Shown here: one piece after another, positions 15,039 through 20,921 of the stretch
Numbering within the stretch: the stretch's first letter is position 1
How the letters are laid out: each line of letters opens with the position of its first letter
Virus record (IMG/VR): IMGVR_UViG_3300025449_000062
Coordinates: 1-21,767 of that record
Length of the DNA: 21,767 nt
Source: a virus
Strand: one strand, 5' to 3'
Made by a program: the position numbers and the translations under genes
The notes under the pieces: generated by a model
The model's input: only the letters and a program-made list of their open reading frames with translations
What the model was told of the DNA's origin: nothing
The model's database searches: none

Positions 15039-15956
15039 ATGGCTAGAACACCCTATTCCATCAACTCCTATGTAGGAGGGGCTTACCCTCTCTATCTTGC
15101 AGGAAGCGGTATTGGAGCTTCTGATACTTCTCTGACACTTAGCGGTAGTATGAGCAGTTGGAGTGGTCTAGGCGTTACCGGTGGGTGGTACCTAGCCTTA
15201 GGTTACGGCACTAGCACCGAAGAAAAGATCTATGTAGCGGCTAGTGGTTATAACTGGAATGCCGGCAATACCATTGTTCTTTCCGGTATCACTCGAGGAG
15301 TTGACTCTACTACAGCAGTGGCTCAAGCCAGTGGTACCATAGCGGTTCCAGTGTTTACGAGTGTCGATATTAGTGAGGCCAATAGAGCGGCTAATGCACT
15401 CTATGGTGGTGGTACAGTAAGTTCCCTAGTAGTAAGTGGTGCAGTTGTAGTGGGTAACACTCTTGCAATAAGTGGCTCTACGACAGTTTTGGGTGGTCTC
15501 ACTGCTAACAGTCTTGTAACTCTTCAAAGTACCTATGAAAATGTAGTAGTCAATAGCACTACCGCTCTTAGTGGATCAAACTCAGTGGTACTAAATACCG
15601 CTAGTGGGTCTTTCTACTACAATACTCTGTCTCCTAGTGGTTCTTTTACTATCACTATTACCGGTGCACCAACTACTGCCGGTAAGAGTGCCACTTTTGC
15701 ATTATTGGTCAATAACGGTTCCACTGCCTATTTGCCTAATAATATTACAATTAACGGTAGTTTAGCAGGTGCAAGTAGTTCGGCACTTCCAGGTCAAGGC
15801 GCAACTAATAATAACATTACTACCTATTACCAGGGTGGTGTACAATGGACTTCGGCAGATGCCAGTACACTAGACTCATATAATTTTACAGTAATCTGTA
15901 CAGCAACTGGTACACCTAACTCATATACTTTGTTAGCGGGATTGACCAAGTTCTAA
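15039..15956 (+). CDS. Probable tail-fibre-like protein (305 aa)
   Basis: Residues ~86-110 read R-G-V-D-S-T-T ... T-S-V-D, a pattern resembling the attachment end of many phage fibres, and a similar pattern (R79-G...T101-x-x-D104) is present in the gene at the right end of the window. Residues ~110-190 are Val/Gly/Ser repeats of a fibrous type (VVSGAVVVGNTLAISGSTTV). The last ~100 residues form a beta-rich terminal domain with aromatic residues. No ribosome site is obvious. The stop overlaps the next ATG by one base (TAATG), tying it to the glycine-rich gene. Receptor binding is the likely role, by analogy. Confidence 0.75.
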   Translation: MARTPYSINSYVGGAYPLYLAGSGIGASDTSLTLSGSMSSWSGLGVTGGWYLALGYGTSTEEKIYVAASGYNWNAGNTIVLSGITRGVDSTTAVAQASGTIAVPVFTSVDISEANRAANALYGGGTVSSLVVSGAVVVGNTLAISGSTTVLGGLTANSLVTLQSTYENVVVNSTTALSGSNSVVLNTASGSFYYNTLSPSGSFTITITGAPTTAGKSATFALLVNNGSTAYLPNNITINGSLAGASSSALPGQGATNNNITTYYQGGVQWTSADASTLDSYNFTVICTATGTPNSYTLLAGLTKF

Positions 15957-16882
15957 TGCCATTGGCTACTACATTTGCAAACAATAGTGCTAGATCACTA
16001 GGGCTATTTTCTTCAATGTCCACCTCTACACTCTCTTTGGACTACTTAGTTGTTGGTGGTGGTGGGTCTAGTGGTGGTTATGTTACAGTTTCTCGTATTG
16101 GTGGCGGTGGCGGTGGTGGTGACGTAGTTACCACTTCTACATTCGTTTCTACCGGTAATACGTCACCCAAGCTCTCTATTCCTCTTTCGGGAATCACTGT
16201 CTATGTAGTTGTAGGTGGCGGTGGACCCACTGATGTATCCACCGACATAACCGGTTATCAAGGCGGAACAAGTTCAATTACTGCACTTTCGACAACTATC
16301 CAAGCACTTGGCGGTGGCGGTGGTGGACTTGGTGGAACTATTACTGGAGCCAATAATGGTACAGATGGCGGTTCAGGTGGTGGTGGCGGTAGAGCCAATG
16401 GTACCGGCGGTAATGGCCTTCCTTCCAACTCTAGCCCCTACCTTTCTAATACAAACGTAGGTGGAAATGCCGGTAGTTCTACCGGTACAGGTGGTGGTGG
16501 TGGTGGTGCAATTAGCGCTGGCTCTGCTGGTGTTAGTACCGGTACAGCATCGGGTGGAACAGGCCTAACCAGTACAATCAATGGCACAAGCACTGTATAT
16601 GGTGCTGGTGGCTATTCACAGAGTACTATTGCTCAAACTTCTGGAATTGGTAAGGGTGGTGATGCAACCCGCGCTACTAGCCAGGGGGGTTACCCTGGAA
16701 TAGTCATACTTGCATGGCCTACCGCTACATATTCGGGTTACCCATCTCTTACTAAAGCGAGTTTGGGTACAGTTACAAGTGGTACTAATGGGTCTTATAA
16801 CTGGATGCGATTTACAGCCGGTGCAGCACAAGGAACTACCGGTACTATGGCTCTAGTATATTCGGGAAGTGTCACTTTTTAA
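15956..16882 (+). CDS. Glycine-rich adhesin-like protein (308 aa)
   Basis: Residues ~28-250 contain many runs of three to seven glycines separated by short strands, with a pattern of the type Val-Val-Val-Gly-Gly-Gly-Gly and Ala-Leu-Gly-Gly-Gly-Gly-Gly. This is the kind of glycine-rich domain found in phage tail proteins and adhesin tips, which can pack as polyglycine-II helices. A short strand-rich C-terminus (~250-308) follows. It overlaps both neighbours by one base, so the three genes 15039-19236 are translated as a coupled set. A receptor-binding tip role is inferred from composition and context. Confidence 0.75.
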   Translation: MPLATTFANNSARSLGLFSSMSTSTLSLDYLVVGGGGSSGGYVTVSRIGGGGGGGDVVTTSTFVSTGNTSPKLSIPLSGITVYVVVGGGGPTDVSTDITGYQGGTSSITALSTTIQALGGGGGGLGGTITGANNGTDGGSGGGGGRANGTGGNGLPSNSSPYLSNTNVGGNAGSSTGTGGGGGGAISAGSAGVSTGTASGGTGLTSTINGTSTVYGAGGYSQSTIAQTSGIGKGGDATRATSQGGYPGIVILAWPTATYSGYPSLTKASLGTVTSGTNGSYNWMRFTAGAAQGTTGTMALVYSGSVTF

Positions 16883-19236
16883 TGGCTACCCAAAATTATT
16901 CTACTAACGGTACCTATTACTGGACTGTACCCAACAATGTCTCCTATGTTACTGTCACTCTAATAGGCGCAGGTGGCGGTGGTGCCGGTCCCGATACTGG
17001 TCAGCAAGGCGGTAGTGGTGGTGGTGGTGCCTATACTTCAGCAACCTTATATGTAGCTCCCGGAGCAACGTATACCATTGTAGTGGGTTCTGGAGGAATG
17101 GGTCCAGTTACCGGTGCCGGTGGTAATGGTGGAGACTCTAGTTTTTACGGTCTCTATGGACCCTATATCCCTTTTATAGTCGCTTCTGGAGGTCAGGGCG
17201 GTAAAATGGGAGAGTTTAACCAAACTGCTTCTGGATTTGGTGGTGGCGCTAGTTCTAACCCAGCTGGGATAGTGACTTCTTTTACCTCTTACGCTGGTGG
17301 TAATGGCTATTGGAGTAACGGTGCTGGTGGTGGTAGTAGTGCCGGTAGTAGTAGTGCAGGGACAAATGCTACATCTTCTATCTCGGGTGCAGTGGCTCCA
17401 ACTAATGGCGGTAGCGGTGGTAACGGTGGTGGCAATCTTTCTTCAACCTCCAATGCTCCATACCCTACTATTGCCGTTCCAGGCGTAGGTGGTGGTGGAG
17501 GCAGTGGCGGCACCTATAATGCCGGCCCCCTTGGTCAGCAATATGGTCAGGGTGGTAATGGCGGTGATGGCAGTGTCACTATCACTTGGAATGTCCCGGC
17601 TTCTCCCAATGGCTATTTATCGTTAAACTCCAATAATACCAATGTCACTCGAGCTTTTTATGGTAGTCAAGAATCGTATCTTGGCTACACCAACGGTCGT
17701 CAACATTTTCAATATATTAGAACAGCTATTGCCGCTCTAGCAAATGTAGCTCGTGCAACAGTGGTTAAAGTCAAGAGATTGCAAGCTGTCCAAGTGTCCC
17801 TAGCTAAATCAAGTAGAATTATTACTAGAGGCAAAACTTCCAAAGCCGCTCAAACTTTAACTAGTAGAGACAATAAAAAAGTTTTCAAAGTTTCTTTGGC
17901 TCTGCAACTGTCCTTAAGTATTCTTTCTAGAGCCATTCAAAAATCTCGTAGAGTACTAGCTGCTGCTGCCAACCTTGCTCAAATTCAAGTGTCTAAAATC
18001 AAGAGAATTAATGCAAATCAGAGTAATACCGCTAGTGACTCTCGAAACTTACAGAGATCACGACGAGTGTTTGCCACACTCTCTAATAACGCTCTTGTAA
18101 TTAAGTCTGTCACTAAGAGCGTTAAGTCTGTCTGGATGCCTGTAGCCACTAGCTTTAGATCTCGCATTCGTAATAGAGTTGTTAGTGCCGTACAAGTTTT
18201 TGCATCACTGTCCAATAAGAGTAGAGTGCGACTAAGACGAGTCACTGCCACTAGTGCAAACGCCACTTATACTCTGAATCGTAAAGTGAAAGTTCGAATG
18301 GTTTCGGCAGTTCAACTCTGGTATGTTCGTCAACCTAACAATAAAGTATTCCTAAAAGTAGTTGTAGCTACCGGTGTAGCGCTCTCTAGTATCAGTAAAA
18401 AGACAACCAAGTCACTAAAGGCGGTAATGTCTCTGACGGTCACTAATAGTAAGTCAATTACCAAGAAATTTAGAGCTCTATTTACCAGTAATGCTCGAAC
18501 TTCTAGAAGTCATATCTACCGTAGAGTGTCTTTGTCAACTTTAGTCAATAACACTCGTACTCAAGTGTCTAAGCTTAAAAAAGTCAGTGCATTAGTGACT
18601 AATGTATCTAAAATCGCTAAGTCCACTAAGAGAAAGAAAAACTCTACTGCTATCAGAGTTTCAAGTGCACTATATAAGAGAAATACGAGTAGAACTAGAA
18701 AAATACAGGCAACCCAAGTGGTTAATGCCACTGTTATTCGAGCCGTCAAGCACCCAAGGCATTCAACAGCTACAGTTAGATATACTATTGCCCCTTCTCG
18801 GAAAGTCACTTACTTGAGACGTGCAAAGGCATCTGTGGTGTCTTCTATCCATACTCCTGCAAGTAAAGCTCGAGTATTTGCATTACGGGTACAGGCACTT
18901 GTCTCCAAAGAGCAAAATATTTCTAAGAAAATTGCAGTACTGGTTCAAACTCTATTTACCAAAAAGCAAAATATTAGCACTCGTATTCCAGTGTCGGTAA
19001 AAGTCACTCCGGTAAATACCAATACTGTAGGAAATGTCAACTGGGCTGTTGCACAAGATCTTGAGAGTACAGACAATATTAGTCAAGTGTTTGATCAGGG
19101 TCCGGAAGACAACGTGGAAGAGACGTACCTAGAACCCGTAGACTATGCAGAAGATAAAGACCTGGAACCCGTAGATACTGCAGTTGCTACTAACGATCTC
19201 GGAGATGCCGTCATTCCAGATCCCAACTATGGCTAA
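16882..19236 (+). CDS. Glycine-rich protein with long basic repeat region and acidic tail (784 aa)
   Basis: Residues 1-~237 form a glycine-rich domain of the same type as the preceding protein, with the common entry pattern Trp-Thr-Val-Pro then Val-Thr-Leu-Ile-Gly-Ala-Gly-Gly-Gly-Gly. A short linker with several aromatic residues (Phe, Tyr, His) follows (~250-280). Residues ~277-712 consist of about 20 degenerate units of about 20 residues, each with Lys/Arg pairs, a Val/Leu-x-Ala segment and a polar stretch; this part is very basic and contains almost no Asp, Glu or Cys. Residues ~725-784 are acidic with two LEPVD copies. In the repeats arginine is often AGA, unlike the capsid gene. The repeats could bind anionic wall polymers, DNA or an acidic partner, or make a fibrous shaft. 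A tail-fibre or adhesin is the best guess. Confidence 0.75.
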   Translation: MATQNYSTNGTYYWTVPNNVSYVTVTLIGAGGGGAGPDTGQQGGSGGGGAYTSATLYVAPGATYTIVVGSGGMGPVTGAGGNGGDSSFYGLYGPYIPFIVASGGQGGKMGEFNQTASGFGGGASSNPAGIVTSFTSYAGGNGYWSNGAGGGSSAGSSSAGTNATSSISGAVAPTNGGSGGNGGGNLSSTSNAPYPTIAVPGVGGGGGSGGTYNAGPLGQQYGQGGNGGDGSVTITWNVPASPNGYLSLNSNNTNVTRAFYGSQESYLGYTNGRQHFQYIRTAIAALANVARATVVKVKRLQAVQVSLAKSSRIITRGKTSKAAQTLTSRDNKKVFKVSLALQLSLSILSRAIQKSRRVLAAAANLAQIQVSKIKRINANQSNTASDSRNLQRSRRVFATLSNNALVIKSVTKSVKSVWMPVATSFRSRIRNRVVSAVQVFASLSNKSRVRLRRVTATSANATYTLNRKVKVRMVSAVQLWYVRQPNNKVFLKVVVATGVALSSISKKTTKSLKAVMSLTVTNSKSITKKFRALFTSNARTSRSHIYRRVSLSTLVNNTRTQVSKLKKVSALVTNVSKIAKSTKRKKNSTAIRVSSALYKRNTSRTRKIQATQVVNATVIRAVKHPRHSTATVRYTIAPSRKVTYLRRAKASVVSSIHTPASKARVFALRVQALVSKEQNISKKIAVLVQTLFTKKQNISTRIPVSVKVTPVNTNTVGNVNWAVAQDLESTDNISQVFDQGPEDNVEETYLEPVDYAEDKDLEPVDTAVATNDLGDAVIPDPNYG
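17707..19014 (+). repeat. Degenerate ~20-residue basic repeats within the 784-aa protein
   Basis: About 20-22 units can be cut by eye, each opening with a Lys/Arg pair plus Val/Leu/Ile (for example KRLQAVQVSLAK, RRVLAAAANLAQI, RRVFATLSNNA, KKVSALVTNVSK, RKIQATQVVNAT). Unit length varies from about 17 to 22 residues. DNA copies are not identical, so the array is old or under diversification rather than a recent duplication. Confidence 0.6.
19129..19176 (+). repeat. Short acidic direct repeat (LEPVD)
   Basis: CTAGAACCCGTAGAC and CTGGAACCCGTAGAT occur 33 bases apart, coding the peptide LEPVD twice in the acidic tail of the 784-aa protein. Confidence 0.6.
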
Positions 19237-19281: not shown

Positions 19282-20358
19282 ATGTCAATCTCTCTGTATA
19301 CTACTACTACTTCAGGTTGGACTAATACCAACTATACAAACTGCACTCTAACTCTACCCTCTAACACTATCGGTGAAGATCTCGTAGTTGTTGCGTACGC
19401 CGGTGGTGGTGGTACAGGTACCGTGACTAGTGGTTTTGTATCAAGTCAAATTACTACAGTAACCGGTAATGGCAGTTTAATTACCTACAATGCCAATAAT
19501 TACTTTTCAGTAGGTGATGTTGTTACTATCTATGGTGTTAGTACGCCTCTTAATTTTCAAAATGTCACTATTGTATCCGGTAGTTCTACGGGTTTTGTAG
19601 TTAGTGGAACCAATTCTGTCAACGTTTCAGCTTCCGGTTATGCCATTAAAGCTCCACAACTTACACCTACCGGTCTAGGTGCCACTTGGATTACTCTAGG
19701 CCAGGGTACCTCTAACCTACAAACCTACGCCTACTTTCTAGGTTACAACTGTGCTTCCGGCAACTCGGTAATTACACTAAGTGGTATTATTCCGGCCGCT
19801 CAGAGTGGTGGCGGTGGCATGGTCGCAGCGGTCTTTAGTGGCACTCTTGCTAATGCTCCAATTGCTTCTCAAACCGGACTGGTTGTCAACTCAACTGCAG
19901 TTGTCAATACTCCACTTACAACTACGGTTTCATACCAGCCAAATCAATTGCTTTTGTCATTTACTCAAGCCAATCAGTTTGCTAGCCCTTACCAGGGCAC
20001 TTGGAACGGAGTGGCTGAAACTCCCATTACCACTACCACTACCGGTACTGGTCAGAGTAGACAGGCCATAATTGGTTACCTGGTTAGTACCACTTCTGGT
20101 ACTAATGTCAACTACATTACTCCTAGCGGTAGTAGTCAGGTAGTTACAAGTACTGTAGAAGTTGTTGTCAACTCGTCTTACCCTTACAGTAATGGTAGTA
20201 CTCCACTATACCCATGGGAACCTCAGGTGGCTAACTTTACCATGTCTAATGGTCAATTTACCATCAATAAGTCGTCTACTGGTTATGTAGCAGGAGCCAA
20301 TAATACTTCAGTATACCAGCACGGTCAATACCGTAGTTCAAGAGAGAATGGAAACTAA
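19282..20358 (+). CDS. Beta-rich virion protein (358 aa) with shared C-terminal motif
   Basis: AAGGAG at 19271-19276 lies 5 bases before the ATG. The whole protein is Ser/Thr/Gly/Val/Asn-rich with alternating strands; residues ~30-45 contain a Val-Val-Val-Ala-Tyr-Ala strand followed by a Gly run. Aromatic residues lie mostly at turns. The final 15 residues, V344-x-Q-H-G-Q-Y then S, R-E and Gly, closely match the end of the 106-aa protein encoded at 12718-13038. It is followed two bases later by the peptidase gene, suggesting one transcript. It is probably a fibre, spike or tail-surface protein; no family is recognised. Confidence 0.75.
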   Translation: MSISLYTTTTSGWTNTNYTNCTLTLPSNTIGEDLVVVAYAGGGGTGTVTSGFVSSQITTVTGNGSLITYNANNYFSVGDVVTIYGVSTPLNFQNVTIVSGSSTGFVVSGTNSVNVSASGYAIKAPQLTPTGLGATWITLGQGTSNLQTYAYFLGYNCASGNSVITLSGIIPAAQSGGGGMVAAVFSGTLANAPIASQTGLVVNSTAVVNTPLTTTVSYQPNQLLLSFTQANQFASPYQGTWNGVAETPITTTTTGTGQSRQAIIGYLVSTTSGTNVNYITPSGSSQVVTSTVEVVVNSSYPYSNGSTPLYPWEPQVANFTMSNGQFTINKSSTGYVAGANNTSVYQHGQYRSSRENGN

Positions 20359-20360
20359 TA

Positions 20361-20921
20361 ATGAATGATACACGTAATGCACAAGTAGCCTGGGCCAACT
20401 GGGCTGTAGCCGATCGTATCAAGCACCCAGAGCACTGGAACTACTCAGAAGGTTCAGACCGCATGAATGCTATCGGTATCTGGCCTCCCAAGTTTCCTGT
20501 CAACACCGACTGCTCGGGTTCTTGCACATACTGGGCATGGCTCGCTAATGGCAATGACCCCAACGGTCTTAACTTCAACCACGAGGGCTACACCGGCACG
20601 TTTCTCAGTCACGAAGAGCACGAGGCCATGTGGATTAAGAATGCCAAGGGTGTCCCAGTGGAGCAAGTTCTTCCTGGTGACCATGTTGTTTATGGACCCG
20701 GTACCGGCTGGCATGTTGCAATTGTTGTAGAAGTTCACGGTAATGACATTCTTACTGTTAGTTTTGGAGCTCAGGGTGGCCCCGGTTACTGCTGGGTTAA
20801 TAAACCTAAGACAGTTCCTTCTCGTGGCTACCCATTTGACGGACGTACTCCCCAAACTTTCCTTCGTAATGTGACCGATACCAACAAGACTGTCCGTACT
20901 CCCGACGATCTCTCCAAGTAG
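20361..20921 (+). CDS. NlpC/P60-like (or CHAP-like) cell-wall peptidase
   Basis: The product probably cleaves bacterial peptidoglycan, as an endolysin or as a virion-bound wall-degrading enzyme. The catalytic cysteine lies in a T-D50-C51-S-G context, the classic NlpC/P60 form, and H118 lies in a Gly-Trp-His-Val-Ala-Ile-Val-Val strand after a Pro-Gly-Asp turn, as in this cysteine-peptidase class. The 186-aa length suits a single catalytic domain without an evident wall-binding domain; the last ~35 residues are Asn/Thr/Lys-rich. There is no signal peptide. It starts two bases after the previous stop and sits between two fibre-type genes, which favours a virion-associated enzyme over a classic lysis-cassette endolysin. 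Confidence 0.8.
   Translation: MNDTRNAQVAWANWAVADRIKHPEHWNYSEGSDRMNAIGIWPPKFPVNTDCSGSCTYWAWLANGNDPNGLNFNHEGYTGTFLSHEEHEAMWIKNAKGVPVEQVLPGDHVVYGPGTGWHVAIVVEVHGNDILTVSFGAQGGPGYCWVNKPKTVPSRGYPFDGRTPQTFLRNVTDTNKTVRTPDDLSK

Follow-up and report, generated by a model that had tools for sequence, protein, structure and literature searches.

What is a phage protein that joins a glycine-rich domain to a long, strongly basic repeat array and an acidic tail, and what might the array do for the virus? The question is raised by an open reading frame in what we call the window, the whole stretch of DNA analysed, which is a 21.8-kb viral fragment (IMG/VR record IMGVR_UViG_3300025449_000062, 21,767 nt). An earlier note made from the sequence had described just this order of parts at 16882-19236, and the layout is borne out here. 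The features are as follows.

15956..16882, + strand: upstream Gly_rich_2 protein, 308 aa (Pfam)
16882..19236, + strand: whole ORF, 784 aa; its start codon and the stop codon of the gene before it overlap (TAATG)
16903..17589, + strand: Gly_rich_2 domain of the polyglycine-rich phage tail type, residues 8-236 (Pfam PF21722 and PHROG tail families)
17650..17706, + strand: Y/G-rich box RAFYGSQESYLGYTNGRQH, residues 257-275, before the array (by eye against relatives)
17707..18882, + strand: basic repeat array (residues 276-667), in which the profile finds 21 units, each of 18 or 20 residues
18703..18861, + strand: conserved cap, the last two units (IQATQVVNATVIRAVKHPRHSTATVRYTIAPSRKVTYLRRAKASVVSS), 43% identical to that of L216 and 32% to that of L134
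18877..19017, + strand: post-cap basic segment, residues 666-712, with the 18-residue repeat pair KEQNISKK / KKQNISTR (sequence, DNA repeat)
19018..19233, + strand: acidic tail, residues 713-784, with two LEPVD copies, ending in LGDAVIPDPNYG (family motif G-x-D-x-[VI]-P)
20361..20921, + strand: CHAP-type peptidoglycan hydrolase, which marks the shared gene order downstream of the array (Pfam CHAP at 2.8e-4, a weak match that does not reach the curated cut-off; 7-sequence alignment)

The phage and its glycine-rich domain

The window also encodes cement, head, portal and protease genes. Its portal is 37-39% identical to the portals of Gordonia and Mycobacterium phages of the Bxz1 group, which includes QBert (Bixzunavirus, Ceeclamvirinae), and its portal and capsid proteins match PHROG head and portal families. 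In these respects it resembles the Bxz1-like phages; it differs in its array, for which tblastn with P0001 and with the array of L032 found no match in any of the 50,697 INPHARED records. Eighty IMG/VR relatives were fetched by way of the capsid protein, and we regard the window phage and its array-bearing kin as a clade of uncultivated Bxz1-like actinophages. WhiB proteins are characteristic of Actinobacteria and the phages that infect them, and WhiB genes occur in seven of the eight longer relatives, which points to actinobacterial hosts; we take the virus to be one of freshwater actinobacteria. A Phage_cement_3 (PF23968) capsid cement protein is encoded at 10364-10906, directly upstream of the major capsid gene.

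The N-terminal domain matches Gly_rich_2 (PF21722) at 70.1 bits, against a cut-off of 24.3 (3.6e-19), and has no sequence match in the PDB. The functional comparison that suggests itself is gp38 of phages T2, S16 and PP01, a polyglycine-II adhesin with a Gly-rich receptor-binding tip (PMC12892980). Residues 1-240 of the window protein are Gly-rich too; neither a basic array nor an acidic tail is described for gp38, and the polyglycine-II fold is that of gp38, the window domain being known from its sequence. Several relatives without an array have a Gly-rich gene whose end directly precedes the gene that carries the box and the acidic tail. In direct blastp comparisons the window domain did not match the upstream Gly-rich genes of relatives above shuffled controls, so that only Pfam matches, of varying strength, speak for an origin of the window gene by fusion of two such neighbours. 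A number of Gly-rich proteins (window 15956-16882; L042 17694; L095 2654; L216 273 and 1277) share an N-terminal MPLxTFxxxxAR/AxxxLG-like motif, which is possibly a virion-anchoring peptide. In L048 (14487-16019) a structural gene of the neighbourhood encodes collagen-like GxQG repeats (QGNQGYQGTQGYQG) beside a Gly-rich domain.

The basic array and its unit

Residues 277-712 contain 91 K/R (46 K, 45 R) and three D/E (D330, D386 and E677), which agrees with the nearly acid-free basic region described before; the computed net charge of the array is +88.1 and its pI 12.0. The earlier note had counted about 20 degenerate units and had named two outcomes that would speak against it, the lack of any periodicity and a match to a known non-repetitive fibre domain, and neither occurred. 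The K/R positions give a Fourier peak at 19.2-19.3 residues with a power of 27.4, against a shuffle maximum of 9.7, and the significant K/R lags of 18, 20, 38 and 56 define units of 18 or 20 residues. A profile finds 21 units from residue 276 to about 667, after which roughly two more 18-residue units extend to 712, so that both the number and the boundaries given in the note were right. The arrays have no match in Pfam, PHROGs, NCBIfam or the PDB. TRF found no tandem repeat in the array DNA, and direct repeats there are weak (the best, a 54-nt-spaced pair, lies at 18878-18975), so that the units are old and diverged. The post-cap basic segment has a similar stretch in L216, as judged by eye.

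Four arrays were used to train a circular profile of 20 positions for the unit; its consensus is approximately [AS]-x-[AV]-x-Q-[TIV]-[SN]-L-[AV]-x-[ST]-[ST]-[KR]-x-A-[RK]-[KR]-[FL]-[RK]-x. Among some 160 units, K/R occupies position 19 in 98% and position 13 in 77%, and the 18-residue units are two residues short, mostly around positions 13-18. A profile trained without the window protein scored the window array at 19.3 and the reversed sequence at 5.7, with a mean of 4.3, an SD of 1.1 and a maximum of 8.3 for 200 shuffles, although this leave-out test is not fully independent, since the other arrays had their units set in register by joint training. This score and the 43% identity of the cap to that of L216 place the window array in the repeat family of its relatives, and by the profile the order of residues, beyond their composition, is common to them.

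Two known kinds of repeat invite comparison. GW modules, as found in Listeria InlB and Ami, are basic, occur in multiple copies and bind lipoteichoic acid non-covalently. The array likewise has basic units in many copies, and it differs in that these are of 18-20 residues, whereas GW modules are SH3-like domains of about 80 residues; with the E-value limit at 0.1, Pfam gave no match of any kind within the array. The triple beta-spiral shafts of adenovirus and reovirus fibres are built from pseudo-repeats of about 15-20 residues, variable in copy number and with a conserved Gly/Pro turn. Short repeats in variable number are common to both, but the window array has 1.8% Gly+Pro, is highly cationic and has units of 18 or 20 residues. 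A scan of GTDB with the cap/tail alignment found no relative, a literature search among open-licence papers found no described equivalent, and no array relative of established function was met in the databases searched. We take the array to be a new repeat family, a module with its own cap and a variable copy number, on phage proteins of structural type.

Could the array be a stalk or spacer, possibly beta-rich and oligomeric, that sets the reach of a fibre, with its charge serving assembly or solubility and binding nothing on the host? The regular unit with conserved small and hydrophobic positions is what such a part might look like, and so is a unit number that varies; even unit lengths of 18 and 20 would suit strands. 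An AlphaFold model from an alignment of eight units has approximately one strand of 9-18 residues per unit, but its mean pLDDT is 46.7, and a model from four units (pLDDT 41.3) has no secondary structure; a hydrophobic-moment test for helix or strand was mixed and leans weakly helical in two arrays. The near-total absence of acidic residues over about 400 to 1650 residues in divergent arrays exceeds what a spacer needs, and the low Gly+Pro content is unlike that of known fibre-shaft repeats. On this evidence we consider a stalk that binds nothing rather unlikely.

Variation, probable mobility and the acidic tail

The earlier note had proposed comparing unit numbers in related phages, and the array was indeed found there, in numbers that differ widely: about 20 units in L181 (577 aa), 30 in L094 (739 aa), 32 in L092 (932 aa) and 82 in L093 (1770 aa), and none in L029/L148, L030, L044, L048, L225 and L233, whose alleles are of 61-174 aa. 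L216 (1043 aa) has a more divergent array, detected by the profile without a unit-by-unit count. These relatives were reached by way of the capsid gene, the CHAP gene, the cap and the repeat profile; a scan of viral contigs with the window array alone as query gave no match. A four-unit-block profile matches 13 of the 50 records searched, many of which are fragments, so that the rest are not proven array-free. Many relatives are without the array, which is therefore dispensable for the lineage.

Where present, the arrays sit between a short Y/G-rich box and an acidic tail, and the window box RAFYGSQESYLGYTNGRQH resembles, by eye and without statistics, the YYSPNxxAYELGWRGG boxes at this site. 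Gaps separate the arrays of L181 and L182, one of exactly 20 residues. At the N-terminus the window protein has Gly_rich_2 and L092 a domain that is unclassified; L094 and L181 have only short boxes there. From these arrangements the array is best described as an insertable, length-variable module on interchangeable N-terminal parts. In L066 (19203-20204) a Spherulin4 (PF12138) domain is followed by a near-perfect basic repeat, FIKVVQTNIDKISKQKQS, in a gene truncated where the contig stops; membership of this repeat in the same family was not borne out by the profile. L055 encodes a protein of 552 aa (15255-16910) whose parts are similarly arranged and whose end is acidic (LDPTDFAEANETEEF...LDENLDPPDAGVANGT); its middle is Ser/Thr/Asn-rich and only partly basic.

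The relatives' arrays are proteins under purifying selection, as seen in two pairs, the window copy having no close relative for such a test. Between L182 and L188 the array has a dN/dS of 0.31 (Fisher p = 2e-4), and between L093 and L099 the whole gene, nearly all of it array, has one of 0.41 (p = 1.6e-5); the 66 residue changes include one acidic residue gained and five gains or losses of K/R.

By its gene content L134 is another type of phage, in which array and cap are followed by a non-acidic tail. Its array alone scored 8.2 with the leave-out profile, within the shuffle range (maximum 10.2), and its assignment draws on the cap and on the four-unit profile, which contains L134 rows. With a cap and array in so different a phage, the module seems to pass from phage to phage on its own, separately from the acidic tail, and array and cap are probably mobile together.

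The surroundings of the gene bear on whether the protein could be an accessory of lysis, a cationic protein that assists the CHAP hydrolase encoded nearby, either by attaching to the inner side of the wall during lysis or by helping release. The neighbourhood of the box/tail gene and CHAP is conserved across the clade: in relatives the acidic-tailed gene lies directly upstream of CHAP, and in the window one extra gene (19282-20358) lies between. Against such a role, array-less alleles are tiny and acidic-tailed with no wall-binding feature, in L134 the array gene and CHAP are separated, the array gene following one that is also found with the structural cassette, and the window array is fused to a tail-type Gly-rich domain. 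We give it a slim chance.

Charge is segregated along the window protein as the earlier note had said, with -2.4 in the N-terminal part, +88.1 in the array and -17.6 in the tail, where residues 713-784 contain 18 D/E and one K/R and the LEPVD copies lie at residues 750 and 761. From this segregation the note had gone on to suggest that the tail masks the array until contact with the host, and here the comparison with relatives goes against it. The relatives' gene has an acidic tail, whose C-terminus is of the G-x-D-x-[VI]-P type in most alleles, and the array-less relatives keep this tail; L134 has an array without an acidic tail. Array alleles carry +79 to +244 before the tail, and across 12 alleles, with tail boundaries set by eye, pre-tail charges of +1 to +244 and tail charges of -3 to -17 are uncorrelated (Spearman -0.03, p = 0.92) and far from balanced, the most charged array (+244) having a tail of -3. 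Masking is thus hardly credible. Different proteins encoded at 12718-13038 and 19282-20358 of the window and at 11655-12287 and 12290-13468 of L055 share a similar C-terminus (QNGQYNSRREGGGQ, QHGQYRSSRENGN, FQNGQYNTTQRGF and PVQTGQYRTTRWQG), which is perhaps an assembly or head-fibre signal.

Charges of this size, made up in the window array of lysine and arginine in nearly equal number, would also suit a protamine- or histone-like protein of the virion, or one ejected from it, that condenses or escorts phage DNA. Protamine-like chains do not typically have ordered 20-residue units with conserved hydrophobic positions, and the fusion to a tail-type Gly-rich domain and the place near a wall hydrolase fit a role at the surface better, which leaves DNA binding improbable.

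A candidate role at the virion surface

The reading we prefer, though tentatively, is that the protein is a virion-surface accessory, a fibre or adhesin, and a multivalent cationic binder of anionic envelope polymers; that it is present in the virion and binds polymers is what we infer. From the sequence, teichoic acid, capsule, DNA and protein are all candidate partners of the array. The array is fused to a phage-tail Gly_rich_2 domain with matches to PHROG tail families, in a window with cement, head, portal and protease genes; the N-terminal parts of the family are interchangeable, possibly including the Spherulin4 of L066, and the gene is near a wall hydrolase. Related phages have anything from 0 to 82 units, K/R is conserved at unit positions 19 and 13, and selection is purifying, with a single acid gained among the residue changes. 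The WhiB genes, finally, point to actinobacterial hosts. The adhesin reading is weakened by the many relatives without an array, by the low confidence of both AlphaFold models and by the lack of an array relative of established function in the searches made.

Under the adhesin reading, the polyglycine-rich domain would carry a long cationic repeat module, which would bind anionic polymers of the host envelope in a multivalent manner and with low specificity, so that virions might be kept close to the cell during the search for specific receptors. Gain and loss of units would tune the length of the array, and the acidic tail would be a separate conserved C-terminal module for docking or assembly. 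A more specific version, possible if on balance doubtful, is that this is an undescribed mobile module with its own cap, which expands at a single site of a virion protein from no copies to about 80 and acts as a tunable electrostatic tether to the anionic envelope polymers of actinobacteria.

In any case, a repeat family that was unlisted, with a clear cap and tail, is now recognisable to annotators. If the array is a tether to the cell surface, the alleles with 0, 20, 30, 32 and 82 units would be a natural series in length and avidity, with which one may ask how electrostatics and reach govern adsorption in abundant, hard-to-culture freshwater actinobacteria.
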